A DNA stretch of 64,000 nucleotides from Microglena sp. YARC. Its lineage: Eukaryota; Chlorophyta; Chlorophyceae; Chlamydomonadales; Chlamydomonadaceae. Of this stretch, positions 631 through 64,000 are shown in pieces; within the stretch, counting starts at the first letter, position 1; every line of letters starts with the position of its first letter. The position numbers and the translations under genes are program-made. The notes beneath the pieces are model-generated. The model saw only the letters and a list, made by a program, of their open reading frames with translations. It was not told where the DNA came from and did no database searches. The DNA lies in NCBI GenBank assembly GCA_022414725.1, contig CM039467.1, forward strand, positions 14,089,658-14,153,657, read 5' to 3'.

Positions 631-1034
631 GTCGACGCATCTATGCTGCGCCAGCTGTCCCTCGGCCCTGCCATCCTGGCACCCTCCAGGGCCAACGGCT
701 TCGCCAACATGTTCGAAACCATGCAGAAGCAGGCGCGCCTGTTGGCAGGCGACTACCCCAAGTTCCCTACCCTTCGTATCGGGAGGGATGAGTTGGTACC
801 AACAGGAGCCTTTGCGGAGGCACAAGCGCAGTATTTGAATCCTAAACAGGATCAGGTCGACAGGCTGGCGGCAATATTGTGGGAGAAGAGTGTGGGTGTG
901 GTTGCACACTTCTATATGGACCCAGAGGTGCAAGGCGTGCTTATGTCGGCAGCAGAGCAGTGGCCCCACATTTACATTAGTGACTCCTTAGTGATGGCGG
1001 ACACTGCTGTCAAGATGGCTAAAGAGGGCTGCAA
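631..1034 (+). CDS. nadA: QS exon 1 (first in window)
   Basis: The acceptor is CACCCCAG before 631 and the donor is GTGAGT at 1035. The exon encodes 134 codons plus two bases and contains [19 protein letters not shown], then [16 protein letters not shown] and [19 protein letters not shown], all strongly conserved in plant quinolinate synthases. The frame upstream of 631 stays open only through a 15-bp repeat, so the acceptor at 629-630 is preferred over a longer exon. The donor leaves AA, completed by G of the next exon to a lysine codon. Residues 1-70 are less conserved and correspond to the linker before the catalytic domain. Confidence 0.9.
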
Positions 1035-3595
1035 GTGAGTGCATGACTTGGGGTGGAGGTGGGGTAGGGTATGGGATGGAAGTGGGGTAGGGGGTGGAGT
1101 AGTGGGGTGGGGGGAGGGGCTCTCCTGAGGAAGAAGAGTGTGGGTGTGGTGACACACTTCTATAGGACCCTGAGGTGCAAGGTGTGCTTTTGTCAGCAGA
1201 AGAGCAGTGGCTCCGCATTTACATTAGTGACTCCTTAGTTATGGCAGACACAGCGGTCAAGATGGCTAAAGAGGGCTGCAAGTGAGCGCATGACTTGGGG
1301 GAGGTAGTGGACGTGGAGGTGGGGAATGGGGTGGAGGAGGGAAGGGGCAGGGGGTGTAGGGATGAGGGGGAGGGGTGTTGGGTTGGAGGTAGGAGGTAGG
1401 AAGCAATCCTGACTTGGGGAGTGGGGTAGGAGGGAGAAAGCAATCCTGACTTATGCTCCTGCTCTGCTTGCAGGTACACTACTGTCTTGGGGGTGGGGTA
1501 GGAGGTGGAAGTGGGGTACGGGGTGGAGGAGTGTGCGTGTGTGTGTGGGGGGGGGGGGGGGAGGGGGGGGGGCGTGCATCAAGAGAAACAAACTTGTAAT
1601 CCTGACTTGAGCTCCTGCTTTGCTTACAGGTACATTACTGTCTTGGGTGTTGACTTCATGAGTGAAAACGTGCGCGCAATCCTTGACGAATCAGGCTACA
1701 AAGATGTACAAGTGTACCGCATGTCCCCCGACGCCATTGGCTGCTCCTTGGCAGAAGCTGCTGAGTCAGAGACCTACAACTCGTACCTCAAGACAGCTGG
1801 CGAAACCCCTAACTCAATGCATGTGGTGTACATCAACACGTCGTTGGTGACAAAAGCGGTAGCTGACTCCATGGTCCCCACCATCACGTGCACATCGTCC
1901 AATGTGGTTCAGACAGTGTTGCAGGGCTTTGCACAGGTACAGAGAGGACTGGGGGAAGGGGTGTGTGAGGTGTGTGTGTGGGTGGTGGTGGGGTGGGGTG
2001 GGGGAGCTGCTTATGTCGTTGGTGATGAAGGCGGTAGCTGACTCCATGGTCCCTACCATCACATGCACATCGTCCAATGTGGTTCAGACAGTGTTACAGG
2101 GCTTTGCTCAGGTACACAGGGGATTGGGTGGAGGGGTGTGTGTGTGTGGGGGGGGGGGGGGGGGGGGGGGAGGGGGGGGGGGGGGGGGATGGGCTGCCTA
2201 GGTCGTTGGTGATGAAGGCGGTAGCTGACTCCATGGTCCCTACCAGGACGTGCACATGCTAGTGTGGTTCATAAAGTGTTGGGGGGCTATGCTAAGGTAC
2301 AAAGGGGATTGGGGGAAGGGGTGTGAGGTGTGTGGGGGGGTTGGGTGGGAGGGGGAGGGGGGAATGGGCTGCCTTGGTCGTTGGTGATGAAAGCGGTAGC
2401 TGACTCCATGGCCCCTACCAATCACGTGCGCATCGTCCAATGTGGTTCAGACAGTGTTGCAGGGCTTTGCACAGGTACACAGAGGATTGGGGGAATGGGT
2501 AGTAAGTGTGTGTGTGTGTGTGGGGGGGGGGGGGTGGGGGGGGGGGGGATGGCTGCCTAGGTCGTTGGTGATGGAAGCGGTAGCTGACTCCATGGCCCCT
2601 ACCATCACGTGTGCATCGCCCAATGTGGTTCATACAGTGTTGCAGGGCTTTGCACAGGTACACAGAGGATTGGGTGAAGGTGTGTGTGGGGTGGGGTGGG
2701 GGGATGGGCTGCCTAGGTCGTTGGTGATGAAGGCAGTAGCTGACTCCTTGGTCCCTACCACCACGTGGTATATATGTATATATATATACGTATGGGCCGT
2801 CACTTGGCACAGCTGTTTGCAAGCCTGGCACAGAACTCTTTCCTTCCTCACCAGACTTACCTGTCCTCTTGTTTTCGTAGGTACCTGAAGCAAATGTCTG
2901 GTATGGCCCGGACACATACATGGGACATAACTTGGCGCAGCTGTTTGCGAAGCCTGACACAGGTATATTTCCTTTCTCACTAGACTTACCTGTCCTTCTG
3001 TTTTTGTAGGTACCTGAGGCAAATGTCTGGTATGGCCCCGACACATACATGGGACGTAACTTGGCGCAGCTGTTTGCGAGCCTGGCTGAGAACGGCACGG
3101 ACGAGGAGATTGCTTCCATCCACCCTGACCATAACGTGGCCTCTATCAAGGCAATGCTCCCGAGGTTGCGATACTATGAAGATGGAACATGCATCGTGCA
3201 TCACATCTTTGGGGGACAGGTGAGTGGGGGTGTGTGTTGGGGGTGGGGGGAGGGGGGGGAATTTGGTGCGTGTGTTTGTGGTGGGGGTGTGGGGGAGTTA
3301 GGGAATATGTGTGTGTGTGGTGTGTGGTGGGGGTGGGGGAGGAAGGAGTTTGGGGGGGGGAAGGATGAGGTTGAGGGTTGAGTTACGGAATGTGGGTGGG
3401 TGGGTGGGGATCTTGTGGCAAGCATAGGGGATATGTGTGTGCACCGCATCTTTGGGGGACTTGTGAGTGGGGGATATGTGAGGGTGTGTGTGTTGGGTGG
3501 GGGGGGAGGGGGGTGGGGGGAGTTGGTGTGAGTGGGGGATGGGTGGGGTGGGTGTGGGGGGGGGAGGGAGGAGTTTGGGTTGTGTGGGTTGTGTA

Positions 3596-3641
<46 letters not shown>

Positions 3642-6600
3642 TGAGGGTAGAGTTGGGGAATGTGTGGGTGGGTGGGTGGGGGGGGGGGATCTTGTGTTAA
3701 GCATGGGGGATACATGTGTGTGCACCACATCTTAATGGGTCCGGTGAGCTGGCTGGCATTTTGTGGCAAGCAAGGGGGATGGGGGGAAGGGGAGATAAGA
3801 AGGGCCTGGCTGGCAATGGCCCCAGCGTGAAGATCGCCTCCATCCATGCTAACCGAAACAAGGCCTCCCTTCACTGCAGGCACATTTAGAGTCCAGGAGG
3901 GCACCACAGGATAACATATCCATCATCATCGTCACCACAGCGACACACCCTACATCATGTGCCCTTCTATCCACACCCTACACCCTGCAACCTGCTCTTT
4001 AACCCTAGACCCTATTCCCCACTTAAACCCTAAACCCTTAACCCTATTCCCCACACCCTGCACTTCAATCCGAAACTTTAAGCAACACACCATTGGACAT
4101 GTCCAGGTGTGCAATCTCGTTCACCAGGCACATGGTGATGCCATATACCCTATACCCTACACCCTATGCCCAGGCGTGCGCCATTGTGCGCGAGGCACAT
4201 GGTGATGCTTACCTGACTGCACACTTCGAGATACCTATACTCTGCGCCCTACACCTTGCACGTATACCCTACACCCCATGCCCTGTACCCCATACCCTAT
4301 ACCCTACACCCTACACCCTAATCATAGGTGTGCGACTTTGTACGTGAGGCATATGGTGATGCTTACCTGACTGCGCACTTCGAGGTGCCTATACCCTGCA
4401 CCTATCCCCTACACCTTACATCCTATTCCCAGGTGTGCGACATCGTACGTGAGGCATATGGCGTTGCTTACCCGACTGCGCACTTCGAGGTGCCTATACC
4501 CTGCCCCTATACCCTACACCTTCCACCCTATGCCCAGGTGTGCGACATCGTACGCGAAGCATATGGCGATGCTTACCTGACTGCGCACTTCGAGGTACCG
4601 GGGGAAATGTTCAGTCTAGCCATGCAAGCCAAGGCTCGTAACATGGGGGTGGTTGGCTCTACCTCCAACATCCTGGAATTCATTGCCGGCAGGGTGGAGG
4701 CAGCACTCGAGCGACCACACGCTGACAGGCTGCAGTTTGTGTTGGGCACTGAGGCTGGAATGATCACATCCATTGTTCGGAAGGTGAGGCACTGCCCTTT
4801 TCGTTTTTTCGTAGTAAAGTGTAGTGTAGTGGCTTAGTATCTGAAATGCACTCCATATTATGAGACGCAGGAGGTGGAGGGGTAGAGTCACTGTTTCTTT
4901 TCTGGGCGACGCGTAGCAGCTTCCACCCAGCTCCATCAGCCAGCGACTGAGTTGAGACCGATGATTACAGCTGCATTGGAGTCACTGTTTCTTTTGGGGG
5001 ATATGCGTAGCAGCTTCTAGGCAGCTTCTTTCACCCACCCATGGGCCAAATAAAATACACGGGGTCCTGTCCTTCAATGGTACTAAAATACATGGGTTCC
5101 TGTCCTTCAATGGTACTAAAATACACGGGTTCCAGTCCTTCAATGGTACTAAAATACACGGGTTCCTGTCCTTCAATGGCACTAAAATACACGGGTTCCT
5201 GTCCTTCAATGGTACTAAATTACACTGGTTCCTTTCCTTAACAATAACCCTGCCTGTGTGTAGGTCCAAGGCATGCTCAGGGAATCCGGTAGGGACGATG
5301 TGGACATTGAGATTGTCTTCCCAGTGGCTCCGCAGGTGAGCCTCTTTTCTTTCATTTTCTGTTGCCATTTTTGGAGGGTCTGATGCTCCCAGTGGCTCCC
5401 CTTAGGCGATCCCGCAGCATGACTGTCTTCCATACATAAATACATAACTTGTACGCCTTTTTACTTTTTGTTGCACCCCTACCAGCAATTTTTTCCTGTA
5501 GCCATTTCCCCCCATATTTTGTTGGGTTCGATGCTCCCAGTGGCTCCCCTTAGGTGATCCCACAGCATGACTGTCTTCCATGCATAAATACATAACTTGT
5601 ACACCTTGTTTCTTGTTGTTGCACTCCTACTCGGCCATTTTTTCCTGTAGCCATTTCCTCCCATATTTTGTAGGGTTCGATGCTCCCAGTGGCTCCCCTT
5701 AGGTGAGCCCTCAGCATGACTATCTTCCATACACAAATACATAAATGACACGCCTTGTTACTTGTCGTTGCACCCCTACCCCTACCACCGCACCCCTACA
5801 CCTCAACACCCAACATCGCCACCTCTCGATTCCCATCTCCCGATCTCAGTGGATTTCTCCCTCATTCTTCCCTCTCCCTCTCCTCCTCCCTCTCCCTCTC
5901 CTCCTCCCTCTCCCTCTCCTCCTCCCTCTCCCTCTTCCTTTCCTTCTTTCTTAACCACCCTACTGCAGAAATGTGCTGGCACCTCCACTAAGGCTGTCTC
6001 AGCCTGCAATAGATCTTGCGCCTCTTGCACGTTTTGATCACGCCTATTATCCTTATGCTTCTTGCCAATGACCCCCTCTAACTCAGCCTCACTCAGGTCG
6101 AATGTCTCAATGTCGTCCATGCTGAGTTGCTGGGCTGGGTGGACATACTGCATGTTATGAAGGAAGTGGTAGCTCGATGCGTACTTGCGTGTCTTCACGG
6201 GTAAAGAATGGCAGATAGGGCATGCCACAGGCACAGGAACCCAAAGGCATGCAGAAAAGCAATGGTGAAAAGGAATGCGCCAGGGAGCAAGCCCTTGCTC
6301 TCTTGCGCCTTCCTTTTCGCGGTTGCTTCTCTGCATGCCTTCAAGTTCTTCTGCCTCGCGACGTTCGAAAGGTACCTGTTGAACAATTCCCGTCCACACT
6401 CGCCACATTTGATGCCAGAAGCGATGGGGTCCATCGAACAACATTAAATGGTCCCAGATAGAAGGAAGAGATGTGGGGAAAGAAGAGCCTGCCCTAGTTT
6501 GTTCGTTGCAGAATCTGTACTTCCTCGTTTTGTACTGCAAGTGTTGGGTTGAGTTGGATTGGGGGGGAGGGTAAGGGTTGTTGGTGGTGGTGTGTGGGGG

Positions 6601-6739
6601 GGAGGGGGGGCTTTCCTTGTAGCACCAATGGACTGGTCTCAGTAGAGGAATACCCCAGTTATGCGTCATTCTGTGGTCTAGGAAACAATGCTTGAAAGTA
6701 CCAAATTTTAGACAAATTCAGTCTTTCGACCTCGACCCC

Positions 6740-6772
<33 letters not shown>

Positions 6773-9700
6773 AAAAATACTTAGTAAAAATACTTAATAG
6801 TTTTGCCCACTGGGCGAAAAAAAAGAAGATTCTTCATCCTCACAGCAAGCTCTACATATTTGGGGCATGGGGTCAGGCATCCTCCCCCCCCCCCCCCCCA
6901 CACACACACACTCGCCTGACGGGGAATAAAAAGCTGAACCATTTCTGAAAGGAGAGGGGGGGGGGGCACCCCATGAAAATAATTTTAGAGTTAGCTCATC
7001 TGACAGCAATTGATCTCCTCTTTCACATTACCCACGCACCAATGCCCCACCACCCATCTGTATCAGGGTACTTCAAATGGCCAAATTGGCCAGCGCTTTA
7101 GCGCACTTTCAAACAAAGATACTGCGCTTTGTAGTGTAAAAAGCGCAAAAATGGCTTGCTGCGCCCACGAGGGGTTGCAAAAAACTGTGCTTAAAGCGCA
7201 GAGGGGGTCAAAAAGTCAGCACTCAAAAGCGCAAAAGCGCGCGCTTTGAATTACCCTGGTCTATATGAAGGGAACGGCAGTATTATATTATATGATAGCA
7301 TGTCATCTTATGATATCATATAATGCCAGCAGTCTGACTGGGCTAAAATTACCATTTCTATGCAGTATCAGATGATGCAGTTTGTAAGATATTATACTCG
7401 CCCTAGGTCATTTTCTATACAGCATCATATGATTTGCTTTTCTTATTCATATATCAGTATATGTGTTTGATTGGACGCCAAATCTGTACCCAAAACCAAA
7501 ACCGTACCCAAAACCAAAACCCTGCCCAAAACCAAAACCCTACCCAAAACCAAAACCGTGCCCAAAACCAAAACCGTACCCAAAACCAAAACCGTACCCA
7601 AAGCCAGAACCGTACCCAAAACCAAAACCAACTCCTTGTATGCAGTCCATTACCAAAAAAAAAACTTCCAACCAAACCCCTTGCGACCAAAAACCCTTTG
7701 CAACCCCTTGCATGCAGTCAAGAACAAAGAGACAAGACTAAAACCAAAACTTAAACCAAAACAAACCCCTTGCATGCAGTCCATAACCACGGCTAAGCAA
7801 GAAGTGTCTGCGGGCATTTGATCGGACACCAAAAGCAAATCAAGAACTAAGAGCAAAAGCAAAAAACTTTGCAACCCTTTGCATGCAGCCCATAACCACG
7901 GCCAAGCAAGTAGTCTTTCCGGCGGTTGATTTGACACCATATTGAAAACCTAAACTAAAGCCCAAACCAACCTCTTGCATGCAGTCCATAACCAAAAACC
8001 CCTTTGCAATCAAACCCCTTGCAACTAATAACCCATCAGCAACCCCTTGCATGCAGTCAACCAAAAAAACACAACTAAAACTAAACCCAACCTCTTGCAT
8101 GCAGTCCATAACCACGGCTAAGCAAGGAGTTTCTGCGGGCAGTGCAGCAATAGAACTCCCACTGGGCCTTTCTATCATTCCCGGGCCTGCCTCTGGAGAG
8201 GGCTGTTCCCTAGATGGTGGCTGTGCTGCTTGCCCATACATGCGCATGAACACCTTGCATGCATTGATGGATGTTTGTATGAAGGTAAGCTTGGTGTTGG
8301 ACTCCGGTGTTATTTTTCAAGATCGGCATTATGTAGAATGCCCATACATGCGAATGAACACCTTGCATACATTGGTGGATGTTTGTGTGAAGGTAAGCTT
8401 GGTGTTTGATACCAATCTTTTTTTTAATCGGCATAATCTAGATTGCCCATACGTGCGCATGATAGATGTTTGTGTTGGGGTGAGGTTGGTGGTGGACGAA
8501 GTTCTCAAATTTCAAATTTAAAAATGTTTGTTTGCCTATACTAGGGCATGACCACCTTGCATGCATTGATGGATGTTTGTGTGGAGGTTAGAAAAGAGCA
8601 GGAATGGCGGGGTAGGGCAGGGTAGTACTGGGCAGGGCAGGGTCAGGCAGGGTAGTGGCCTGGGGTAGCGCTGGGCAGGGTAGTGCGGGCCGGGCCGGGT
8701 TTGAGCCGGGCCAGGTATATGCCGGGCAGGGTAGTGCTATGCTGGGTATATGCCGGGCCAGGTATATGCCGGGCAGGGTAGTGATAGGCTGGGTATATGC
8801 CAGGCAGAGTAGTGCTAGGCTGGGTGTATGCCAGGCAGGGTAGTGCTAGGCTGGGTATATGCCAGGCAGGGTAGTGCTAGGCTGGGTATATGCCAGGCAG
8901 GGTAGTGCTAGGCTGGGTATATGCCAGGCAGGGTAGTGCCAGGCTGGGTATATGCCAGGCAGGGTAGTGCTAGGCTGGGTATATGCCAGGCAGGGTAGTG
9001 CTAGGCTGGGTATATTGCCAGGCAGGGTAGTGCTAGGCTGGGTATATGCCAGGCAGGTAGTGCCAGGCTGGGTATATGCCAGGCAGGGTAGTGCTAGGCT
9101 GCGGTATATGCCAGGCAGGGTAGTGCTAGGCTGGGTATATGCCAGGCCAGGGTAGTGCTAGGCTGGGTATATGCCAGGCAGGGTAGTGCTAGGCTGGGTA
9201 TATGCCAGGCAGGGTAGTGCTAGGCTGGGTATATGCCAGGCAGGGTAGTGCTAGGCTGGGTATATGCCAGGCAGGGTAGTGCTAGGCTGGGTATATGCCA
9301 GGCAGGGTAGTGCTAGGCTGGGTATATGCCAGGCAGGGTAGTGCTAGGCTGGGTATATGCCAGGCAGGGTAGTGCTAGGCTGGGTATATGCCAGGCAGGG
9401 TAGTGCTAGGCTGGGTATATGCCAGGCAGGGTAGTGCTAGGCTGGGTATATGCCAGGCAGGGTAGTGCTAGGCTGGGTATATGCCAGGCAGGGTAGTGCT
9501 AGGCTGGGTATATGCCAGGCAGGGTATGCTAGGCTGCTGGGTATATGCCAGGCAGGGTAGTGCTAGGCTGGGTATATGCCAGGCAGGGTAGTGCTAGGCT
9601 GGGTATATGCCAGGCAGGGTAGTGCTAGGCTGGGTATATGCCAGGCAGGTATATAGTGCTAGGCTGGGTATATGCCAGGCAGGGTAGGCTAGGCTGGGTA

Positions 9701-11022
9701 TATGCCAGGCAGGGTAGTGCTAGGCTGGGTATATGCCAGGCAGGGTAGGCTAGGCTGGTATATGCCAGGCAGGGTAGTGCTAGGCTGGTATATGCCAGGC
9801 AGGGTAGTGCTAGCTGGGTATATGCCAGGCAGGGTAGTGCTAGGCTGGGTATATGCCAGGCAGGGTGTGTATTGCCAGGCCGCCAGCAGGTAGTGCTAGG
9901 CTGGGTATATGCCAGGCTGGGCAGGGGGTAGTGCTAGGCTGGGTATATGCCAGGCAGGGTAGTGCTAGGCTGGGTATATGCCAGGCAGTAGGTAGTATAT
10001 GCCGGGCAGGGTAGTGCCGGGCAGGGTAGTGCCTGGCAGGGTAGTTCCGGTCAGGGTAGTGCTAGTGCTCTCACCAACACCACCAACACCTCTCACCAGC
10101 ACCACCAACACCACTAACACTTTCACCAGCACCAGCAACACCACCAACACCTCTCACCAGGACCACCAACACCTCTCACCAACACCTCTCACCAACACCG
10201 CCAACACCTGTCACCAACACCACCAACACCTCTCACCAACACCACCAACACCTCTCACCAGCACCACCAACATCACCAACACCTTACACCACCAACACCT
10301 CTCACCAGCACCACCAACACCTCTCACCAACACCACCAACACCTCTCACCAGCACCACCAACACCTCTCACCAACACCACCAACACCTCTCACCAACACC
10401 ACCAACACCTCTCACCAGCACCACCAACTCCACCAACACCTCTCACCAACACCACCAACACCTCTCACCAACACCACCAACACCTCTCACCAACACCACC
10501 AACACCTCTCACCAACACCACCAACACCTCTCACCAACACCCCCTACACCTCACACCAACACCACCAACACCTCTCACCAGCACCACCAACACCACCAAC
10601 ACCTCTCACCAACACCTGTCACCAACACCTCTCACCAACACCACCAACACCTCTCACCAACACCACCAACACCTCTCACCAGCACCACCAACACCACCAA
10701 CACCTCTCACCAACACCACCAACACCTCTCACCAACACTACCAACACCACCAACACCTCTCACCGCTCACATCGCTTGACTCCTGCACTCATACCACACT
10801 TATCTAACCTCATCGCCTCCGTCTCACCCCCAGGCTGGCAGCCCCGCTGGTGAGGCCATGCTTGAGGCGCACCAACCCAGGCCCTACAGTGAGACGATAG
10901 GAGGCAAGACTGTGGCGCAGGCTGGCTGTGTGCCCATCTTACACATGCGCCACTTCCAGCAGAACAAGAGTCTCAGTGACCAGCTTGTTCAGGACATCCG
11001 TACTCGCAACCAAGCCAGCTAG
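631..11022 (+). CDS. nadA: Quinolinate synthase (plant-type NadA), 3' part of gene, seven exons
   Basis: Quinolinate synthase condenses iminoaspartate with dihydroxyacetone phosphate to quinolinate, the pyridine-ring step of de novo NAD synthesis; in plants it is plastidial. Joining 631-1034, 1630-1936, 3010-3219, 4538-4783, 5264-5335, 8105-8284 and 10834-11022 gives 535 codons in one open frame plus a TAG stop. Conserved family segments appear in order: [94 protein letters not shown] and the plant-type tail [11 protein letters not shown]. The three cluster cysteines known from E. coli NadA have counterparts in IGCSL (1742), GTCIVHH (3190) and CAACPYM (8231). The N-terminus, where plant enzymes carry a transit peptide and a SufE domain, is outside the window. 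Every intron contains decayed copies of neighbouring exon ends. Confidence 0.95.
1136..1490 (+). repeat. Decayed echo of exon 1 end and exon 2 start
   Basis: Positions 1136-1284 repeat about 885-1034 of exon 1, including AAGATGGCTAAAGAGGGC and a donor-like GTGAGC, but with a single-base loss near 1166 that breaks the frame. Positions 1463-1490 repeat the start of exon 2 with its CTTGCAG acceptor. The intron therefore holds one tandem copy of the block exon 1 end, intron, exon 2 start. It is not expected to be translated if the outer splice sites are used. Confidence 0.85.
1630..1936 (+). CDS. nadA: QS exon 2
   Basis: The acceptor is TGCTTACAG and the donor follows TTTGCACAG at 1937 (GTACAG). 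After completing the split lysine codon it encodes 102 codons, beginning [18 protein letters not shown]. The cysteine at 1742-1744 in IGCSLAEA aligns with Cys113 of E. coli NadA, a [4Fe-4S] ligand. HVVYINTS and [12 protein letters not shown] follow, typical of the middle domain. The donor is weak (GTACAG), and many similar downstream copies compete with it. Confidence 0.93.
2013..2961 (+). repeat. Five echoes of exon 2 end, then two of exon 3 start
   Basis: Copies of the exon 2 3' segment with following donor and G-rich intron start occur at about 2013-2111, 2201-2296, 2377-2475, 2559-2658 and 2716-2767, with a unit of about 180 bp. Each contains GCGGTAGCTGACTCC or a close variant. They are followed by two partial copies of the exon 3 start (2787-2839 and 2881-2961, the latter preceded by a TTTTCGTAG acceptor). 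Single-base differences and indels break the frame in several. The order is always donor-side copies first and acceptor-side copies last. Confidence 0.9.
3010..3219 (+). CDS. nadA: QS exon 3
   Basis: The acceptor is TTTTTGTAG and the donor GTGAGT at 3220. Exactly 70 codons, phase 0 at both ends. It encodes [16 protein letters not shown] and ends with [12 protein letters not shown]. The cysteine at 3190-3192 corresponds to E. coli NadA Cys200, the second Fe-S ligand. A perfectly open frame and consensus splice sites make this the functional copy, in contrast to the two partial copies upstream. Confidence 0.94.
3597..3641 (+). repeat. Uninterrupted poly-G tract, about 44 nt
   Basis: A homopolymer of more than 40 G lies in the donor half of intron 3. 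Similar tracts occur at about 2149-2190 and 2521-2549. On the RNA these could form G-quadruplexes. Homopolymer length is unreliable in most assemblies, so the exact size should not be trusted. Confidence 0.9.
3883..3942 (+). mobile_element. Dispersed repeat fragment with short CAT tail
   Basis: The segment GGCACATTTAGAGTCCAGGA, followed by GGGCACCACAGGA and CATCATCATCG, closely matches two segments in the other gene (56507-56588 and 57416-57497), where the same sequence ends in a long (ATC)n run. A shared body with a 3' microsatellite of variable length is typical of the 3' end of a non-LTR retroelement or SINE. The family is inferred; no coding part is visible. Confidence 0.55.
4538..4783 (+). 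CDS. nadA: QS exon 4
   Basis: The acceptor is CTATGCCCAG and the donor GTGAGG at 4784. It contains 82 codons, phase 0 at both ends. It encodes [32 protein letters not shown] and [16 protein letters not shown], the substrate-site region of the third domain in NadA enzymes. It is the last of five tandem copies of its 5' part and the only one that continues past HFEVP. Confidence 0.95.
4784..5049. other. Start of intron 4, dispersed CAGCTTCTAGGCAGCT motif
   Basis: No coding signal. Two related stretches containing GCGTAGCAGCTTC (about 4910 and 5005) flank a 70-bp segment. The 16-mer CAGCTTCTAGGCAGCT near 5010 recurs around 11842 and 57000, suggesting a fragment of a dispersed element. Nothing else is recognised. 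Confidence 0.4.
5050..5240 (+). repeat. 33-bp minisatellite in intron 4
   Basis: About six tandem units of 33 bp (core AAAATACACGGGTTCCTGTC, then CTTCAATGGTACT) with few substitutions. As 33 is a multiple of three, an artefactual repeat peptide is open on both strands. It ends just before the exon 5 acceptor. Confidence 0.9.
5264..5335 (+). CDS. nadA: QS exon 5 (24 codons)
   Basis: A small exon with acceptor TGTGTAG and donor GTGAGC at 5336, phase 0 at both ends. It encodes [10 protein letters not shown] and [12 protein letters not shown], matching the stretch VEVVFPV that precedes the Fe-S loop in plant enzymes. The frame joins exon 4 and exon 6 without a shift. Its small size and repeat surroundings make it easy to miss. 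Confidence 0.88.
5370..5720 (+). repeat. Three echoes of exon 5 end
   Basis: Three units of about 145 bp begin near 5378, 5527 and 5672 with GATGCTCCCAGTGGCTCCCC, then TTAGGYGA. They resemble the end of exon 5 and its donor (CCCAGTGGCTCCGCAGGTGA). They are followed by a shared intron segment containing CAGCATGACTGTCTTCCATA. Confidence 0.7.
5803..6669 (-). pseudogene. Possible nested gene relic on the minus strand of intron 5
   Basis: I do not recognise the product. The minus-strand frame contains [14 protein letters not shown] (near 6190-6226) and an acidic stretch [18 protein letters not shown] (near 6070-6120). A second minus frame around 6370-6430 has [17 protein letters not shown]. Two zinc-ribbon-like cysteine pairs in different frames, separated by a large palindrome, suggest a frameshifted remnant. 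The right part runs into a poly-pyrimidine tract and is not coding. Base composition is more even than in the surrounding intron, which supports an insertion. It could also be chance. Confidence 0.3.
6231..6354. other. Imperfect palindrome, about 60-bp arms
   Basis: The sequence from GCACAGGAAC to GAGCAAGC is nearly the reverse complement of TTGCTCTCTTGCGCC to GTTCTTCTGCC. The centre lies at about 6292, with almost no loop. About 80-85% of positions pair, with scattered mismatches (GGCATGCAGAAAAGCAA against GGCATGCAGAGAAGCAA). Transcribed from either strand it would form a long hairpin, like a pre-miRNA or foldback element. Open frames on both strands here are similar because of the symmetry. 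Confidence 0.75.
7064..7258. mobile_element. hAT-like MITE, 195 bp
   Basis: The ends are CAGGGTACTTCAAA and TTTGAATTACCCTG, inverted repeats of 14 bp with one mismatch that start with CAGGG as in many hAT transposons. The 8 bp before (ATCTGTAT) and after (GTCTATAT) agree at six positions, compatible with an aged 8-bp target duplication. The interior is full of AGCGC palindromes (for example GCGCTTTAGCGC) and has no coding capacity. It sits in QS intron 5. Confidence 0.75.
7476..7632 (+). repeat. CCCAAAACCAAAACCGTA minisatellite
   Basis: About nine tandem 18-bp units of CCCAAAACCAAAACCGTA with small variants. The 18-bp period leaves all frames open, giving artefactual PKPKPY-type peptides. 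Confidence 0.9.
7637..8060 (+). repeat. Echoes of the exon 6 start
   Basis: Repeated copies of the exon 6 acceptor and first codons (TTGCATGCAGTCCATAACC, some continuing ACGGCTAAGCAAG) occur near 7637, 7706, 7767-7825, 7878-7940, 7975 and 8048. They are separated by AACCAAAAC-rich intron. Two reach the GTCTGCGGGC/TTTCCGGCGG position of exon 6 before diverging into TTTGACACCA-type sequence. Confidence 0.85.
8105..8284 (+). CDS. nadA: QS exon 6, C-terminal Fe-S loop
   Basis: The acceptor is CTTGCATGCAG and the donor GTAAGC at 8285, 60 codons, phase 0 at both ends. It encodes [20 protein letters not shown], the cysteine-rich loop of quinolinate synthases. The cysteine at 8231-8233, just before PYM, matches E. 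coli Cys297, the third cluster ligand. It lies 2.8 kb from exon 5 in a repeat-filled intron but joins both neighbours in frame. Without it the enzyme would lack a cluster ligand. Confidence 0.93.
8339..8590 (+). repeat. Three echoes of exon 6 end
   Basis: Copies of the exon 6 3' end with a donor occur at 8339-8395 (reads [19 protein letters not shown], donor GTAAGC), 8441-8482 (shortened) and 8535-8588. Divergence increases with distance. The first keeps an intact frame over its length but has no acceptor. Confidence 0.9.
8600..10063 (+). repeat. 31-bp minisatellite, about 40 copies
   Basis: Tandem units of GGCTGGGTATATGCCAGGCA plus GGGTAGTGCTA, very uniform from about 8780 to 9520. More single-base indels occur toward 9990. 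It fills the donor half of QS intron 6 and is G-rich on the + strand. Confidence 0.95.
10064..10775 (+). repeat. CACCAACACCTCTCACCAA tandem array
   Basis: A C/A-rich array of interleaved CACCAACAC and CTCTCACCA units fills the acceptor half of intron 6 directly before exon 7. It stays open in one frame for over 280 codons (Thr/Pro/His-rich), which is an artefact. Confidence 0.95.
10834..11022 (+). CDS. nadA: QS exon 7 and stop
   Basis: The acceptor is CACCCCCAG; there are 62 codons and then TAG at 11020-11022. It encodes [20 protein letters not shown], the conserved C-terminal signature of plant-type enzymes, and stops where plant homologues end. The entry frame agrees with exon 6. No clear algal TGTAA polyadenylation signal is seen close by. 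Confidence 0.93.
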   Translation, partial: AGSPAGEAMLEAHQPRPYSETIGGKTVAQAGCVPILHMRHFQQNKSLSDQLVQDIRTRNQAS

Positions 11023-11039
11023 CTCATGCATGTATCATG

Positions 11040-11440
11040 TCTGACCCGACAGCCACCTAGCCAGCTAGCTCATGCATCATGGCATGGGTAGTGTGCCCAT
11101 CTTGCACATGCGCCACTTCCAGCATAACAAGAGTCTCAGTGACAAGCTTGTTCGGGGCGTCTGTGCTCGCAACCATGCCAGCTAGCTCATGCATCACGAT
11201 CGACCTGACAGTCAGCTAGCTCATGCATCATGGCAGCCATGGTGCCAGCTAGCTTGTGGCTCGTGAGTGACATGACTGTGACCAAGCCAGCTAGCTCATG
11301 GTTCACGAGTGTCATGTATTTGACTGTCACCAAGCCAGCTAGTTTGACCTGACTGTGACCAAGCCAGCTAGCTCATGAGTCACGAGTCATCATGTATTTG
11401 ACTGTCACCAAGCCAGCTAGCTCATGAGTTATGAGTCATC
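11040..11440 (+). repeat. Echo of the last exon and CCAGCTAGCTCATG repeats
   Basis: Positions about 11090-11195 repeat the exon 7 end (GTGCCCATCTTGCACATGCG to GCCAGCTAGCTCATGCATCA). From 11195 to 11440 only the last piece, CCAGCTAGCTCATG, is repeated six or more times with spacers. Since this is after the stop codon, these copies probably lie in the 3' UTR or downstream of the gene. Confidence 0.88.
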
Positions 11441-12360
11441 CTATATTTCTAATTATTTCATTGATCATATATGAGGCCGCTAGCTTGATAGACCTAAATG
11501 TCACAAGCTTATATCGATGAGCTCAACCACTTTCCACTGTTTTTCTTTACCGCCCTCAACTAAGCTGAGACCCCATGGTTACACCGGTCACTTTGGCGAC
11601 GGAGGAAGAGGAGCAATTTAACCTAAGGGATCGACGCCCGAAGGCGCCCTCGGGCGACGCCAGCCGGCGTTGCGCATGACCTGCGGCTCAAGCCACCTGC
11701 GGATGCCGCATGGAAGGTTCCAGACGCAGAACACCAAGACCCAGACCCAGATCGAAACCGAGTCCTAGACCCTGACCGAGACCCACGAACCCACGATCGT
11801 CCTGTCGGGGCTGTCACCTCTAGTTTCAGCTACGAGCAGTAGCTTCTAGGCAGCTCCCTTGGCTGGCTTATCAGCCAAACCTAGTGCAACCTCATGCACC
11901 TTGAAGCTGACGGAACCAGCTTTGTAGCGCCGCAATTGTATTGAGGCTTAGCCCATTGGCTGGCTCAGGGAGCTGTCTAGAAGCTGCTGGTAGTAGCCAA
12001 AAAGACCAACACTGCCACTTTCAAGATTGGTGTATAGCCATTGTATTTATCTGACTGACCAAAATCCGACCACCGGGTGGGAATCGGGGGCTTTAGATGA
12101 AGTCGAAGATTCTGAAAAAGGTCTGGGATTTGAAGGTCCGGAAATTCGGGATTATGGTCAGTCAAAATTTATGGGGAGACCGATGTTGGTGACCCCATTG
12201 TTTTTGTTCTGTGCGATGCGTCGCCATTCCGTTGCTGCATGGCGACGCATGGGTCTGGCTAATGTTTTCAGAAATGCCTCCCCGATCCCCCCGAGCTCTG
12301 TGTCGCACAGAGAAAAAAACAGTGGCTGGTGTGCTGTCTCGTCGAGACTAAATATAGTTT
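11441..12360. other. Intergenic region with a short inverted repeat
   Basis: No gene recognised. Around 11640-11820 a GC-rich stretch of unknown nature has open frames on the minus strand without similarity I can name. At 11836-11860 and about 11968-11994 an imperfect inverted repeat (CAGTAGCTTCTAGGCAGCTC against CAGCAGCTTCTAGACAGCTC) encloses about 110 bp, resembling a small foldback element. A 111-codon frame at 12027-12362 (+) has no recognisable motif and is probably not a gene. Confidence 0.4.
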
Positions 12361-12645
12361 AATGAATTTAGCACACGGATATCTGATCAGATGTTCATGT
12401 GGTTAATCTACATAACTACAACTAAAACGCTAGACCTGGGAATGCCACCAAGTACCGTAGTTGAGTGGATTTAGCACACGGATATCTGATCAGATGTTCA
12501 TGTGGTTCATCTACATAACTACCACTACAAGGCGTGACCTGGGAACGCTACAATATAGCACAGTTAAGTGGATTTAGCACACAGATGTCTGATCAGATGT
12601 ATGTGTGTTATACCTGCTCTACTACAATAACACTAGACCTGAGGA
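12361..12645. repeat. Three tandem copies of a 106-bp unit
   Basis: GATTTAGCACACGGATATCT, then GATCAGATGTTCATGTGG, is repeated at about 12364, 12470 and 12571. Each copy is followed by CTACATAACTAC-type sequence and ACCTGGGAA. Divergence is moderate. There is no coding signal. Confidence 0.85.
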
Positions 12646-13574: not shown

Positions 13575-13768
13575 AACGCCTGGTGGGGCGTGGTATTAAG
13601 GGGCTCCCGTATTACGACGGTAGAGAACGGGCAGCTACTTCATCTGGACAAAGCTGGCCATGGCGGTTGACAGCGACCGCGAACACTGAAGCGCACTGAT
13701 AAGGATTCGCACCCCGTACCTTCTTGTTTCGACATGCTGTCCCATTGAACCATTCGTCGAAACGGGAT
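13575..13768 (-). mobile_element. tRNA-derived SINE, divergent subfamily
   Basis: The 3' body (on + read as AACGCCTGGTGGGGCGTGGT then TTAAGGGGCTCCCG) is shared with the SINE copies at 33603, 47482, 48446 and 58180. The tRNA-like head differs: on the minus strand the A-box-like TGGTTCAATGG and B-box-like GGGTGCGAATCC replace TGGTCTAGTGG and GGTTCGACTCC of the other copies. The arrangement of head and body is the same. It lies in intergenic DNA. Confidence 0.7.
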
Positions 13769-15704: not shown

Positions 15705-15811
15705 CCAACCTACCCTACTCACCCTACCCTACTAATAGAGCACAATATTATCGTCATTTAATCTTCTTCATGATTGGTTTATTGGACTTTAATTTTTCCT
15801 GTATGGAGTCC

Positions 15812-16029
15812 TGTTATTGTCCGTTACGTTGGACACTGAGTTGGCATAGTGCACGCGTGGTCCTGGGGCTCCAGGACCCGGGTTGCCTGCCGCCAGGCCA
15901 TAGGCTAACTATGGCCTGCACGTGTCTTCAGAATCTTCCTGGAGACTTCCCATTATATATAGCCGCACGAGTAGCGATGTTAAGCTATCTGCTCTTCAGT
16001 CTTCAGTGTAACTACTCTATCGATTGAAA
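15812..16029 (+). repeat. 5' LTR
   Basis: Starts TGTTATTGTCCGTTACG and ends CGATTGAAA. A TATA-like ATTATATATAGC lies at about 15950. It contains CTCCAGGACCCGGGTTGCCT. Unlike canonical LTRs it does not end in CA, but the end is fixed by the target duplication on the other side. Confidence 0.92.
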
Positions 16030-16045
16030 GGTTATCGGCCCGACC
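16030..16045 (+). promoter_or_regulatory. Primer-binding site of half-tRNA type
   Basis: Directly after the LTR stands GGTTATCGGCCCGACC. Drosophila copia has GGTTATGGGCCC here, complementary to the anticodon arm of initiator tRNA-Met rather than its 3' end. The match is close except ATC for ATG at the anticodon position. The usual plant copia site TGGTATCAGAGC is not present. Confidence 0.6.
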
Positions 16046-16638
16046 GCTACCCGCAGACAGCGCCCCTGCGCCCGTGCCAAGTGGATCTTCAGCCCTGCAC
16101 AAGGTGACAGTTTTCCCTCAGACTAGCTCGACGGCTTGAGTACTGCTTTTGGCCCTGGATTGCCTACGTGTTCATGTGAGGAATCTAACCTGCGCTGCCT
16201 CGCCTACTGCCCACACGACTATCCCGTTGTCTCTACCATCCGTCCAAGACGAAAAATAGACGCAGTCCAGGAGTCTGAGTAGATCTTTGACGTGAGTTGT
16301 ACACTCATCAGATCACACACAGCGTTGCGCAATCCTCTGAGATTGCTTGTGCCACGGAGAATCAAACCTGCACACCCTCGTACCCCCCACCCGCCCCTCC
16401 CCTCCCACCCCCTGATTCCGTCACCCCTTACCCCCTCTCCCTGCCACTTTGCTACAATTTCAGACCAACAGGACCCATTTGGTTCCCCCTTTGTTGTCAA
16501 CACTCCCTCACCACTCCCTCCGAAACGCACACCCAAGACTGAAGCCCGACAAGCTTCACACCCGGATTACCCACATGCCGGTTTATTAACCCGGTGTGAA
16601 GACCAAGACCCCAAGACCCCAGCGCCGCGACAGACATC
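16046..16638 (+). other. Leader of the LTR element
   Basis: No conserved coding block. A Pro/Ser-rich frame is open here on + but does not match Gag. It is presumably the untranslated leader. Confidence 0.5.
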
Positions 16639-17412
16639 ATGGCAACACCAGCCAAGCCCCCTGCACTCATCTTCGACGGCACACCTACTGTTCCCTAGCA
16701 CAAGTTTGGACCCTTCCTCCTCCGCCACCTCAGGTCCCACCCTGGGTGCATCTCCGTCGCCATTGATGCGGCGAAGAACGTACCCCCAGCCATTGAGCAA
16801 GGAACAGCTGACGGATACCCATTGGAGGACTCTCACTACCCGAATTTGGAACACACTAATGCAACTATTGCGGCTCGTGCTGTTTCCCACCCAATCAACA
16901 TGGTAAAGAATGCTGTCGCCTTCAATGAGATCCTCAAGCACTGTTCAGAACCAATCCAGCAGGCCATACTTGCAAACACTGACGTCGCTGCCAAAGCCTA
17001 CAGGTTCCTCAAGCTCACGTACGCTACAGGTTCCTCAAGCTACAGGTTCCTCAAGCTACAGGTTCCTCACGCTACAGGTTCCTCACGCTACAGGTTCCTC
17101 ACGCTACAGGTTCTCACGCTCACGTACGCTACAGGTTCCTCACGCACGCTACAGGTTCCTCACGCACGCTACAGGTTCCTCACGCTACAGGTTCCTCACG
17201 CACGCTACAGGTTCCTCACGCTCACGCTACAGGTTCCTCAAGCTCACGTACGCTACAGGTTCCTCACGCTACAAGTTCCTCACGCTACAGGTTCCTCACG
17301 CTACAGGTTCCTCACGCTACAGGTTCCTCAAGCTCACGCTGCCAAAGCCTACAGGTTCCTCAAGCTCACGGTGGTTGGGAGTTTGGTTTGTTTGTCCTCG
17401 ACACACCCCTGA
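16639..17412 (+). pseudogene. gag: Gag N-terminal part, interrupted
   Basis: From ATG at 16639 a Gag-like sequence begins MATPAKPPALIFDGTP. It meets a TAG at 16696-16698 (codon 20) and then continues in the same frame with HKFGPFLLRHL and AIDAAKNVPPAIEQG to AAKAYRFLK at about 17010. There it enters a 16-bp tandem repeat and ends at 17412. The segment corresponds to the start of copia-type Gag. The downstream half is in another frame after the insertion. Confidence 0.75.
17003..17370 (+). repeat. 16-bp CTACAGGTTCCTCACG expansion inside gag
   Basis: About twenty units of CTACAGGTTCCTCACG, some with AAGCTCACGTACG inserts, grow out of a single gag codon run (CTACAGGTTCCTCAAGCTCACG). The unit has no stop in any of the three frames, so three units read as a 16-residue repeat. 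Each unit includes CAG/GT, like a splice junction. Confidence 0.9.
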
Positions 17413-17548
17413 TGTAATGGGGTTTTTTGCTTTGTGGGTGCTTTTTCTTTTTGTTTAAAGCACAGAGTCTCATACACCCTCGCGGTGTCAAGTAGACTTT
17501 AACATGTAATGTAATGTAATGTAATGTAATGTAATGTAATGTAATGTA
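17371..17548 (+). mobile_element. Putative LINE 3' end with (TGTAA)n tail inside gag
   Basis: Between FLKL and the resumption of Gag at TATGGAGAACGG lies foreign sequence. It has a T-rich stretch, then a small hairpin (ACACCCTCGCGGTGT) and about nine copies of TGTAA/TAATG. A 3' stem-loop followed by a short tandem tail is typical of truncated non-LTR retrotransposons. The family cannot be named. Confidence 0.5.
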
Positions 17549-17956
17549 ATGTATGGAGAACGGAACTCTGACCTGGAAACGGGTGCTGTGAGATCCATGT
17601 ATAACCTCAGCATGACTACTACTGAGCCACTGCAGGTTTACCTCTCCCGCAGCTATGAGCTGTATACCTTGCTACCCCAAGTTAATGGTGTCAGTAACAC
17701 CTCCATCCCTGCTTTTCTCAGCATCATTGTCCAGGGACTCACCCCGCGTCCAGAGTACAATGGTTTCAGGTTCTCCTTCCACAACTCTGTCTGCCCTGAC
17801 TTTGCCTCATTCCAGACACAGATCATCAAGTACCAGGTCTCCAACCAAATATCTGACTCCAACATCTCCCCCGAAGAAAATGAGCACATGGCAGCTGCTG
17901 CCTTCCACGGTCGACCAAGGAAGAACCATATCCCATCAACCCAGATGACCTGCTAG
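17549..17956 (+). CDS. gag: Gag C-terminal domain up to an in-frame TAG
   Basis: Reads YGERNSDLETGAVRSMYNL and SYELYTLLPQVNGV, the pattern of copia-type gag polypeptides (UBN2-like family). It stops at TAG 17954-17956, which falls inside the zinc knuckle: Cys 17951, TAG, Asn, Cys 17960, His 17975, Cys 17990 (CX2CX4HX4C). The frame continues open to 19777 after the TAG. The TAG is thus either a nonsense mutation or a read-through codon. Confidence 0.85.
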   Translation: MYGERNSDLETGAVRSMYNLSMTTTEPLQVYLSRSYELYTLLPQVNGVSNTSIPAFLSIIVQGLTPRPEYNGFRFSFHNSVCPDFASFQTQIIKYQVSNQISDSNISPEENEHMAAAAFHGRPRKNHIPSTQMTC

Positions 17957-19780
17957 AATTGTAATGGTTTTGGGCACAACTCCCTCTCTTGCACCAGTGC
18001 CTCCACTAATCTGAAGTACAGGCCTCCACCGTTTTCATCCACATCTGGAAATAGGGGATCTCCATCACCCCCAAAGGATGTAGCCAGGAGGTCATCCAGC
18101 AAATCCAAGTCCCCAAGGAGAGACCACAGGAACTCCAACAGAGACCCCATGAGCCGCCGTGACAGACGTGGGCATGCCCATGTAGCAGATGATGACTGCT
18201 CTACCTCCCAGTCCAGCACAGACAATGAGGATGAGCACAACTTCATGGCATTGACTACTGATGGACCCCAGCCTCTCCAGTATGCTGAGTCAACAAGAGG
18301 CAAGTCCACAACCCTATCTCTCCCACATGCCCCCATGGATGACAGTTTTTTCTTTGGACCCATTAATGATACAGATGCCTGTCTTATTGAAAAGGAAGAG
18401 TCCATGCCAGACCTACTATCAAGCGATGGCACTAATGATGATGATGATGATGAGGGGAATGCAAATGTGGATCATGCTGTCAGTACACCCCTTGATCACT
18501 ACCAAGCAGCCCTCCAGACAGAATGGCTGTTAGACTGTGCAGCCCACTCCCACTACACCAGTAACCCCTCCAACTTGCATGACATTCAGGATCTCCCTCA
18601 GCCCATTAGCCTCCACCTGGCTGACCTTGGAGCAGCCCCACTGATCTGCCTCCAGAAAGGAAAAGCTCATAGCAGGGGACACCATGGGTCCCTGATCATC
18701 CTCCACGATGTGCTCCTTGCCCCACCCCTGACTACAGCCAACAACATCAGCTTGCATGCAGCACACAGGCTATCTCCCAAGCTTCAAGTCCATTTGTCCA
18801 ATGCTGCTGCTACCCTCTCCCTCCCCACAGCCAAGGGTACAAAGACTATCCTCTTATGCCCCAAAAGGCATGGCCTCTACTTCACTAGCACCTCTAAGAA
18901 CCCTACCCCTTCCCCTATCCCCAGTAACCCTCTTCCCCTTATAGTCATGATGGTCACTCAACAACTGACCAACCAAGCTGCCCACTACAATGATGACTTT
19001 GCTGGCAGCCGCCCCATCCCACAGGAAAGTGCCAGCAGCTCCAGCAGTCTACCAGATCTGATCCCAGTCATTGGTGATGATGACATGCCTGACCTTGTCC
19101 AAGCCAACCCACCTTCCTTGCTCCAGTCAGACAATGGGGGGGAATTCTCACCACACCAAGATGATTTGTACACCACATCCTCCCATGACTTCATCCCAGA
19201 TCCTGACTACTCCACAGCCCCTATCCAGCAGCTCCCCACCGTTCCCCATGATGAGCTCTGTAACCTGACAGAAGCACAAGCCAGAAGAGAAATGGTCCTC
19301 CTGCTGGATCAGGGCAGAACTACATATGAGGGTGCATTCCCTGTTGATGGGCAGGGGTCCTGCACTCAGCATGAGCTCTCCCAAGCCCTTAGATTTGACC
19401 AGTGGATTCCCTCAGCTACCTCCCCATCCCCTGATCAGCCCCTAACTCATGTCAACATGAACACCTTCCCAGTCCATTTCCTTAACAACTCTGGTCTCTC
19501 CAGAAACAGGTTTGGAACCCTGCTGACTACCCTCAACAACTCCCCTTCTTCCCTTAGAGCCTTTAGCATCAGACCTAGACAACCTGTCCCCACTCTCATT
19601 GACCAGCTAGCCATCAAATTCCCTGCCCTGATAGCTTATGAGAAGGCTAAGTTCCCCAACAGACAGATGCACAACAGCCCCTCCTCAGTCTGTGGACCCC
19701 TTCTCAAGCATGTCAACAGATTGCAGCACAAGGTCCACATCTACCCCACTGTTTCTACAACTGACAGGCCCACCATTTAG
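17957..19780 (+). CDS. Zinc knuckle, copia-type protease, integrase remnant, unknown C-terminal region
   Basis: In the same frame as the gag segment. After the knuckle follow an Arg/Ser-rich basic stretch (about 18060-18170) and an acidic stretch with a run of five Asp (about 18436-18455). The aspartic protease signature LLDCAAHSH follows (catalytic Asp 18533), then ILHDVLLAPPL, like the protease flap region of copia. Instead of a full integrase there is only LLQSDNGGEFSPHQ (19127-19147 for SDNGGEF). A further 210 residues without recognisable RT motifs follow, ending at TAG 19778-19780. An internal deletion joining protease and integrase is the likely origin. Confidence 0.8.
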   Translation, partial: NCNGFGHNSLSCTSASTNLKYRPPPFSSTSGNRGSPSPPKDVARRSSSKSKSPRRDHRNSNRDPMSRRDRRGHAHVADDDCSTSQSSTDNEDEHNFMALTTDGPQPLQYAESTRGKSTTLSLPHAPMDDSFFFGPINDTDACLIEKEESMPDLLSSDGTNDDDDDEGNANVDHAVSTPLDHYQAALQTEWLLDCAAHSHYTSNPSNLHDIQDLPQPISLHLADLGAAPLICLQKGKAHSRGHHGSLIILHDVLLAPPLTTANNISLHAAHRLSPKLQVHLSNAAATLSLPTAKGTKTILLCPKRHGLYFTSTSKNPTPSPIPSNPLPLIVMMVTQQLTNQAAHYNDDFAGSRPIPQESASSSSSLPDLIPVIGDDDMPDLVQANPPSLLQSDNGGEFSPHQDDLYTTSSHDFIPDPDYSTAPIQQLPTVPHDELCNLTEAQARREMVLLLDQGRTTYEGAFPVDGQGSCTQHELSQALRFDQWIPSATSPSPDQPLTHVNMNTFPVHFLNNSGLSRNRFGTLLTTLNNSPSSLRAFSIRPRQPVPTLIDQLAIKFPALIAYEKAKFPNRQMHNSPSSVCGPLLKHVNRLQHKVHIYPTVSTTDRPTI

Positions 19781-20050
19781 TGGGCCATCTGCCTACAAGC
19801 AGCTATGGTTCAGGCACATGCCAGGGTCCTTGTCTCCTGGCCCAAGATGCTCATGCACCCCATCAGCTGTGTGAATCCTGGAGGCAAAGTCATCTGTGTC
19901 AACAACCTAAGCATGCACTGGAACCCAATGGATTTCACATTCATCAACATGCTGGACACCCCAAGGATGTCTAGGAAATCTTTCTCCACCCTCCTGCAGA
20001 AAATCCACAGCCAGCTGGACCTTGATGGATACCCAGCATCTGGCACCTAA
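19781..20050 (+). CDS. In-frame continuation after second TAG
   Basis: The frame goes on for 89 codons, starting WAICLQAAMVQAHARVLVSW and ending with TAA at 20048-20050. Its composition matches the preceding region, so it belongs to the same original protein. It contains VICVNNLSMHWNPMDF. I do not recognise the domain. Confidence 0.65.
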   Translation, partial: WAICLQAAMVQAHARVLVSWPKMLMHPISCVNPGGKVICVNNLSMHWNPMDFTFINMLDTPRMSRKSFSTLLQKIHSQLDLDGYPASGT

Positions 20051-20823
20051 ATATGCACCCATAGTCTATTGCTCCATATTGTTTTAGCCATGAACACTCT
20101 AAGATTAATCTGTGTATTGCTTCCTGTACTGGTATCTTGTACTGCCTAATGTACTGGTGCCCCTTTGATTTAGATTTTGATTTAGACTCCCTCATCAAGT
20201 TACTAATGTATGTCTGCAATACTCTAATTTAGGATAAGCCCAAATTATGGGGGGGATAGCACAGACATCTTGTCTAAACTTACTCTCCCATCTCAAATCA
20301 TGTCCCACTTCTCGCAACCAGCTTCCTGGCAGCTTCTCTGCAATCTAGCCTGCAGCTTATCCCCTATGCAGGCTATTCCTGGCACATCACTGTGGCCCCA
20401 TAGTTCCCTAGCATTAATCTGCAGACCCTGACTTATGATACTTTATAGATGATACTGGAAGTACCTCACCATGTCCTTCCAAGTGGATTGATTATCTTGA
20501 GCTAGCGGGGGACGTCTACCTTTAAGTTGTTTACCATAATGGCAATCACACAGTTTGCTATCTAGTCCTTTTATGCTTCCCCTAGCTTCCTCAAGGCAGC
20601 CTCCCTGCCACCTGCTACCCTAGCAGACTGACATTGATCTGAAGATCCCTGCTCTTAATGTGCCGTGTCCCCTTGGATCCTGTTCCAAATAATGTATTAT
20701 TTACAGCATCTCCTGTCAGCCATTAGCATATCTAAATAGCCTTGTCAGCCTTTATACTTCTATAATTTCTTTATGCCCCTCAGTTAATTCCAGGAATTCT
20801 TGTATCCAAGAATACCTTGAATT
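20051..20823 (+). other. 3' non-coding part of the LTR element
   Basis: No frame of note. A second purine tract (ATTATGGGGGGGATAGC at about 20245) resembles the terminal one and could be an internal priming site or the end of an older element. Confidence 0.5.
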
Positions 20824-20831
20824 GGGGGGGA
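20819..20831 (+). promoter_or_regulatory. Polypurine tract
   Basis: GAATTGGGGGGGA lies immediately before the 3' LTR, the expected position and composition of the plus-strand primer. Confidence 0.85.
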
Positions 20832-21049
20832 TGTTATTGTCCGTTACGTCGGACACTGAGTTGGCATAGTGCACGCGTGGTCCTGGTGCTCCAGGACCCG
20901 GGTTGCCTGCCGCCAGGCCATAGGCTAGCTATGGCCTGCACGTGTCTTCAGAATCTTCCTGGAGACTTCCCATTATATATAGCCGCACGAGTTGCGATGT
21001 TAAGCTATCTGCTCTTCAGTCTTGAGTGTAACTACTATATCGATTGAAA
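20832..21049 (+). repeat. 3' LTR
   Basis: Same length and ends as the 5' LTR with six substitutions. It is followed by AGTCC, identical to the five bases before the 5' LTR. Confidence 0.92.
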
Positions 21050-21054
21050 AGTCC

Positions 21055-22350: not shown

Positions 22351-64000
<41,650 letters not shown>

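Follow-up and report, generated by a model that had tools for sequence, protein, structure and literature searches.

Tandem echoes of exon edges beside splice junctions in two genes of a green alga

Genes and exon models

The window, meaning the whole 64,000-nucleotide stretch analysed here, is nuclear green-alga DNA with 50.1% GC. Its features are collected in Table 1. Gene 1 encodes the plastid quinolinate synthase NadA, and its homologues carry PF02445. The seven gene 1 exons in the window join into a single open frame of 535 aa. The best database match to gene 1 is the gene model P0001, with 96% identity across the whole query; in a FastTree analysis of at most 39 selected homologues, P0001 and P0002 group inside Chlorophyceae, with Chlamydomonas eustigma and strain UWO 241 as neighbours. 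Cymbomonas tetramitiformis, a candidate on account of its GC (51.4%, PMC10675990), was dropped in view of this placement of P0001 and of the use of MAKER for the 2015 annotation (PMC5741210). Exon 1.2 had no match in phage records. Within intron 1.5>1.6 lies an antisense ORF of 304 aa (5803-6717, minus strand) with no Pfam match.

Gene 2 encodes a coiled-coil protein. Exons 2.H-2.M join in frame to give 814 aa, for which a length-limited search with 7,998 candidates scored found no homologue at E<=1e-10. Exon 2.G ends at 45649, and the computations used 45653, 4 nt too far. At about 34400-36600 and at 40000-47400, copies and repeats are dotted with small indels, the pattern that a poor assembly consensus would leave. 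Modelled sequence comprises 44,384 bp in 17 introns and 5,109 bp in exons.

An LTR-retroelement-like insertion (15812-21040) has 218-nt aligned repeats that are 97% alike and a weak Pol_BBD match below the Pfam cut-off. Two elements of about 0.9 kb, at 49142-50050 and 51843-52793, form an inverted pair and are 90% alike. The latter interrupts the 2.I acceptor array and holds no array-unit copy, which suggests that it probably arrived later. Copies of a short dispersed element lie at 33597-33812 (minus strand), 48438-48650, 58172-58378, 47467-47553, and about 13575-13765, some of them within echo arrays. By eye this element looks tRNA-derived; ARAGORN found no tRNA in the window, and a 22-base SINE pattern had no match in viral and prokaryote contigs. 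No RNA families or tRNAs were found in the window.

Table 1. Genes, exons, introns and echo arrays, in positions of the window
Feature	Position	Strand	Remarks
Gene 1, quinolinate synthase NadA (plastid)	631-11022	+	stop in last exon
Exon 1.1	631-1034	+	
Intron 1.1>1.2	1035-1629	+	one donor echo 1126-1375, one acceptor echo 1442-1494
Exon 1.2	1630-1936	+	
Intron 1.2>1.3	1937-3009	+	4-5 donor echoes 2015-2767, acceptor echo 2792-2950
Exon 1.3	3010-3219	+	
Intron 1.3>1.4	3220-4537	+	donor echo 3439-3473, exon-interior copy 3804-3867, 3-4 acceptor echoes 4099-4494
Exon 1.4	4538-4783	+	
Intron 1.4>1.5	4784-5263	+	no echo; internal 33-bp array 5051-5239
Exon 1.5	5264-5335	+	
Intron 1.5>1.6	5336-8104	+	149-bp donor-side array 5365-5780 (echo by eye), acceptor echoes 7608-7994
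Exon 1.6	8105-8284	+	
Intron 1.6>1.7	8285-10833	+	donor echoes 8339-8591, then 31-bp and 22-bp-based minisatellites to 10764
Exon 1.7	10834-11022	+	stop
Echoes of last coding exon end, stop codon and 3'UTR	11023-11424	+	no splice junction involved
Gene 2, coiled-coil protein	23592-64000	+	runs past window end
Acceptor-type array upstream of tentative exon 2.A0	22722-23591	+	
Exon 2.A0, tentative	start 23592	+	putative exon
Exon 2.A	23664-23821	+	frame broken
Exon 2.A donor echoes	24040-25627	+	seven; first is a copy of the whole exon
Exon 2.B acceptor echoes	30940-31835	+	five
Exon 2.B	31961-32117	+	
Exon 2.B donor echo	32268-32380	+	one
Exon C acceptor-type copies and CACAAA-type spacer repeats	32500-36560	+	low-quality consensus
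Exon C	near 36437-36620	+	unmodelled
Exon 2.D	36689-36833	+	
Exon 2.D donor echoes	36895-37495	+	three
Exon 2.E acceptor echoes	38625-38954	+	two
Exon 2.E	39111-39345	+	
Exon 2.E donor echoes	39472-39923	+	three to four
Exon 2.F acceptor echoes	40779-41537	+	three to four
Exon 2.F	41561-41732	+	
Exon 2.F donor echoes	41800-43065	+	six
Exon 2.G acceptor echoes	44354-45337	+	three to six
Exon 2.G	45462-45649	+	
Exon 2.G exon-end copies	45886-48801	+	six, three junction-spanning
Exon 2.H	50508-50741	+	
Exon 2.H donor echo	50804-50939	+	one
Exon 2.I acceptor echoes	51171-53134	+	eight; broken up by 0.9-kb element 51843-52793
Exon 2.I	53274-53435	+	
Exon 2.I end copy	53721-53798	+	without intron part
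Exon 2.J acceptor echoes	55961-56194	+	two
Exon 2.J	56252-56461	+	
Exon 2.J donor echoes	56733-58561	+	six to seven
Exon 2.K acceptor echo	58649-58729	+	one
Exon 2.K	58938-59069	+	
Exon 2.K donor echoes	59176-59374	+	two
Exon 2.L acceptor echo	59951-60049	+	one
Exon 2.L	60182-61330	+	
66-bp tandem duplication inside exon 2.L	60641-60798	+	in frame
Exon 2.L donor echo	61484-61637	+	one
Exon 2.M	62210-62764	+	
Exon 2.M donor echoes	62820-63619	+	five

Echoes at exon ends

Echoes were counted with probes of 60 exon and 40 intron nt placed at the 36 exon ends of 19 modelled exons. The probes recovered 81 junction-spanning copies, of which 80 lie on the plus strand within the exon's own adjacent intron and one lies elsewhere in the window. 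The same 36 ends gave no inverted (minus-strand) junction copy in the window. In a dinucleotide-shuffle control of the 17 introns, each of ten runs returned 5-6 matches; five of these, checked on the last shuffle, are the copies of 2.M, which lie in an incomplete intron that was left unshuffled, and 0-1 match per run remains without them. Echoes of exon edges beside splice junctions are thus confirmed as real, and the four ranges named for them in the original prediction (2013-2961, 24020-25450, 44156-45461, and 51200-53150) all contain copies.

The prediction had placed such copies at essentially all introns. This holds for introns, 16 of the 17 modelled being echoed at one end at least (the exception is 4784-5263), but not for intron ends, since a junction-spanning tandem copy was found at 27 of 36 exon ends. 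Under the strict criterion, 10 of 17 introns are echoed at both ends. The nine negative ends are the acceptors of 1.1, 1.5, 1.7, 2.D, 2.H, and 2.M and the donors of 1.4, 1.5, and 2.I. Two of these strict negatives show weaker echoes, the 1.5 donor by eye in its 149-bp array and the 2.I donor as an exon-end copy that lacks the intron part.

The copy used as coding sequence

The outermost copy appears to be the coding copy in the well-assembled parts, as judged from sequence. The earlier claim that the intact junction is always outermost is verified for gene 1 and, by open reading frame, for exons 2.B and 2.H-2.M; in 2.A and 2.D-2.G the frames are broken or unverified. For the clean exons, which are 2.H-2.M together with those of gene 1, differences were tallied by codon position. 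At positions 1, 2, and 3, outer copies differ from inner ones at 94/1061, 89/1058, and 167/1050 (8.9, 8.4, and 15.9%), while differences among inner copies are nearly flat at 171/1647, 186/1652, and 214/1630 (10.4, 11.3, and 13.1%), with 151/1217 in the terminal intron part. A constrained outer copy accompanied by unconstrained inner copies is expected to yield such a pattern. Exons 2.B-2.G lack it (105/755, 79/727, 84/742); there the frames are unverified, 2.B was assigned the wrong phase in the comparison, and assembly indels are abundant.

Of the 17 inner copies in gene 1, 3 were omitted for indels; in tests of the other 14, the outer copy is in every case the one nearer to 60 homologues. 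The codon and homologue counts are not independent, because copies in one array share ancestry. Together they support the proposal that the duplication is neutral because the outer site is used. Relative to the outer copy, the exon part differs by about 10%, and the intron part by about 25% for donors and 20% for acceptors (means). This ratio near 1:2 is as expected if the inner exon copy alone drifts.

Inner copies largely retain splice signals. Among copies found without use of the junction, the donor GT is kept in 41 of 43 and the acceptor AG in 22 of 25. Scored against their own outer site, 23 of 40 inner donors are weaker, 8 are stronger, and 9 are equal; with 17 of 40 at least as strong, strength by itself is not enough to distinguish the outer site. 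The best guess is that exon definition probably decides in favour of the outer site, as inner copies almost always carry just one of an exon's two splice sites.

In the clean parts, the 45 inner copies show 4 indel events alongside 350 substitutions, and noncoding yardsticks give substitution:indel counts from 6:0 to 27:15. A stop codon occurs in 4 of the 45, against 9.0 +- 2.5 under a neutral null (P 0.03). The scarcity of indels and stops hints at some constraint on inner copies, though their codon positions look unconstrained.

One result goes against the expectation that inner copies are never used. The predicted gene model P0001 takes the inner copy at 4433-4489 as an exon, in frame, and also has a short stretch before this copy that the window does not encode (compared with 3196-4600). 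P0002, a NadA with 80% identity, is without the insertion.

Array growth and intron length

Copies within an array commonly share an exon breakpoint. In one array all five copies have it 97 nt from the donor; in others it falls at 86 nt (5 of 6 copies), 90 nt (5 of 7), and 56 nt (6 of 8). The common breakpoint suggests one founding duplication per array, followed by amplification. Copy spacings are about 105-380 bp in most arrays, and the exon depth of the copies is less than the full exon in every array except 2.A. The copies had been described as decaying. Divergence does rise with distance in 9 of 13 arrays of at least three copies, but the trend is weak (mean rho 0.31), and simple decay with distance is rejected.

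Echo spans account for 17,923 of the 44,384 intron bases (about 40%) and other short-period repeats for 13,293 (30%). The remaining intron bases comprise 2,583 in mobile elements and 10,585 in the rest, where the exon C array is partly counted. Intron growth by junction duplication is thus borne out by the share of length that echoes make up, but growth through repeated junction duplications is not, because breakpoints are shared. The leftover unique sequence has a median of 338 bp per intron and resembles whole introns of six Reinhardtinia algae, for which medians of 198-343 bp are given (PMC8226300). TRF gave 42 arrays with periods of at least 60, such as 105 and 128 bp; a modelled exon is touched by 9 of the 42.

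Origin of the arrays

Duplication is not specific to splice junctions: the stop codon of gene 1 is echoed into the 3'UTR, and the interior of exon 2.L contains an in-frame 66-bp duplication. A process acting on splice junctions as such is thereby not supported. A 16-bp tandem array (17021-17334) also lies inside an ORF of the LTR-retroelement-like insertion. In a simulation of random duplication and selection, with unit lengths taken from the observed arrays, 94, 83, and 65% of survivable duplications spanned one junction at introns of 150, 200, and 300 bp, and 10% did so with introns of 2,600 bp. Short ancestral introns would therefore suffice for the junction bias, and no special junction mechanism would be needed.

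Generic tandem duplication filtered by selection is the likely cause of the lengthening of these introns. A segment of about 100-240 bp across one exon edge would have been duplicated head to tail while the intron was still short. The duplicate would be neutral as long as the outermost site still joined the exons, a step that the codon pattern and the homologues support, whereas exon-internal duplicates out of frame and duplicates of a whole exon or intron would alter the protein and be lost. The unit would then have been amplified to 1 to about 8 copies, as the common exon breakpoint argues, while inner copies drifted without coding constraint. Short-period repeats and mobile elements, which are present in the sequence, would have filled the remainder, although their place in this order is inferred. 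Several observations fit generic duplication poorly: a uniform random process does not explain the gap in density between genes and intergenic DNA, one copy of exon 2.A (24040 on) includes the whole exon, inner copies have few indels and stops, one inner copy serves as an exon in P0001, and the codon pattern is absent from 2.B-2.G.

The density gap bears on an alternative in which duplication itself is directed at exon edges or at transcribed genes. Conceivable triggers include breaks linked to transcription or splicing, R-loops, quadruplexes formed by the G-rich sequence beside donors, and units of nucleosome size where exons meet introns. Genes are indeed favoured for duplication: large-offset complex duplications cover 292/10,901 intergenic bases (2.7%) against 3,431/10,392 (33%) and 17,630/40,409 (44%) in the two genes, and 139 of 144 such pairs touch echo spans or exons, with 5 outside. 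However, the complexity filter prefers exon-bearing pairs, since most intron DNA is of low complexity, and the intergenic sample is small, being a single stretch of about 11 kb that is half retroelement. Under other settings, duplicated probes number 15/210 in intergenic DNA, 512/539 inside echo spans, and 25/347 in mobile elements, and complex intron probes outside echo spans are often duplicated too (77/215); an earlier probe version agrees (intergenic 13/109, intron 218/317). The first 300 nt are G-richer than the last 300 nt in 14 of 17 introns (opposite in 2, tie in 1), which suits a G-rich trigger at the donor; acceptor flanks are C-rich, so a sense-strand trigger of this kind misfits one end. 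Targeting is considered unlikely. Equally doubtful is the broader view that this lineage duplicates transcribed exon edges far more than other DNA, that the introns of most genes expand outward from their two splice sites, and that exon definition tolerates up to eight near-identical decoys per end.

Far less probable is the reading that inner copies function as alternative splice sites or exons and are maintained to regulate expression or to provide variants of the protein. The in-frame exon of P0001, the retained GT and AG dinucleotides, and the low numbers of indels and stops speak for it, but differences among inner copies are nearly flat by codon position, homologues lie nearer the outer copy throughout, P0002 is without the insertion, and nearly all inner copies carry a single splice site. 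An assembly artefact from collapsed or mis-joined noisy long reads is more improbable still. Small indels do abound within copies in parts of 23.6-48.5 kb, and the 185-nt stretch at 34209 is 99% like another at 34669; against this, copies differ by about 10-25%, almost without indels in clean parts, and the separate model P0001, which may derive from the same assembly, holds the inner copy at 4433-4489. The flip in base composition between intron ends might suggest mobile introner-like elements or a designed hairpin of G-rich donor and C-rich acceptor intron halves, and neither is credible to any real extent. Introner-like elements are rejected for this one window because 80 of 81 copies are restricted to their own intron. 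The hairpin is rejected because, in 16 introns, pairing the donor and acceptor parts of the same intron gives a duplex energy (-49.4) equal to that of mismatched pairs (-49.1) and not better than that of intergenic pairs (-51.7).

Significance

Long introns are usually attributed to mobile elements and simple repeats. The arrays described here would record another route of intron lengthening, in which tandem duplication of exon edges is made harmless by splicing. With a coding copy and neutral copies side by side, they may serve as a dated, countable series of intron growth, and they offer natural tests of spliceosome choice among several near-identical sites. They also carry a warning for annotation: in the public gene model P0001, a decayed inner copy is already annotated as an exon, so that the gene sets of comparable genomes may include duplicated peptide segments that are spurious.

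Comparison with known systems

A literature search of titles and abstract openings, with most subscription journals outside it, found no description of multi-copy exon-edge echoes, which does not prove their absence. Introners place the same sequence in many unrelated introns; in this window, 80 of 81 copies stay in their own intron. Tandem or mutually exclusive exons also fit poorly, as copies are shallower than the full exon except in 2.A and inner copies differ almost evenly across codon positions. Intronic minisatellites resemble the echoes in their head-to-tail arrays, shared unit breakpoints, and variable copy number, and most copies per array do share an exon breakpoint. Unlike minisatellites, the echo unit has coding sequence and a splice site, and one copy is under selection.

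Tandem duplication of an exonic AGGT segment is a described route of intron gain (Rogers 1989; Hellsten 2011, via PMC4974935). In both cases, splicing hides the product of tandem duplication from the protein; as that route is summarised there, an exonic segment becomes a new intron, whereas here the 80 copies span an existing exon-intron junction and introns lengthen. Internal gene duplication including introns (Gao and Lynch 2009, Knowles and McLysaght 2006, via PMC4974935) likewise involves segmental duplication within genes across exon-intron borders, but in its summary there whole introns multiply, while the units seen here hold one junction.

The closest likeness is to the potato RdRp gene (Ma, Lan and Niu 2016, PMC4974935), where a new intron and new exonic sequence arose when a segment crossing an intron-exon boundary was duplicated in tandem. 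In both systems the tandem duplication straddles an existing junction and carries splice signals, and the 80 copies at 27 of 36 ends are head-to-tail copies of exon, splice site, and intron in the same manner. The potato case as detailed there comprises one gene and one duplication, whereas here most ends bear between 1 and about 8 copies, without requiring any new intron. Junction-crossing tandem duplication is thus already known, detailed once in the potato gene, and multi-copy echoes at most intron ends appear to be new.
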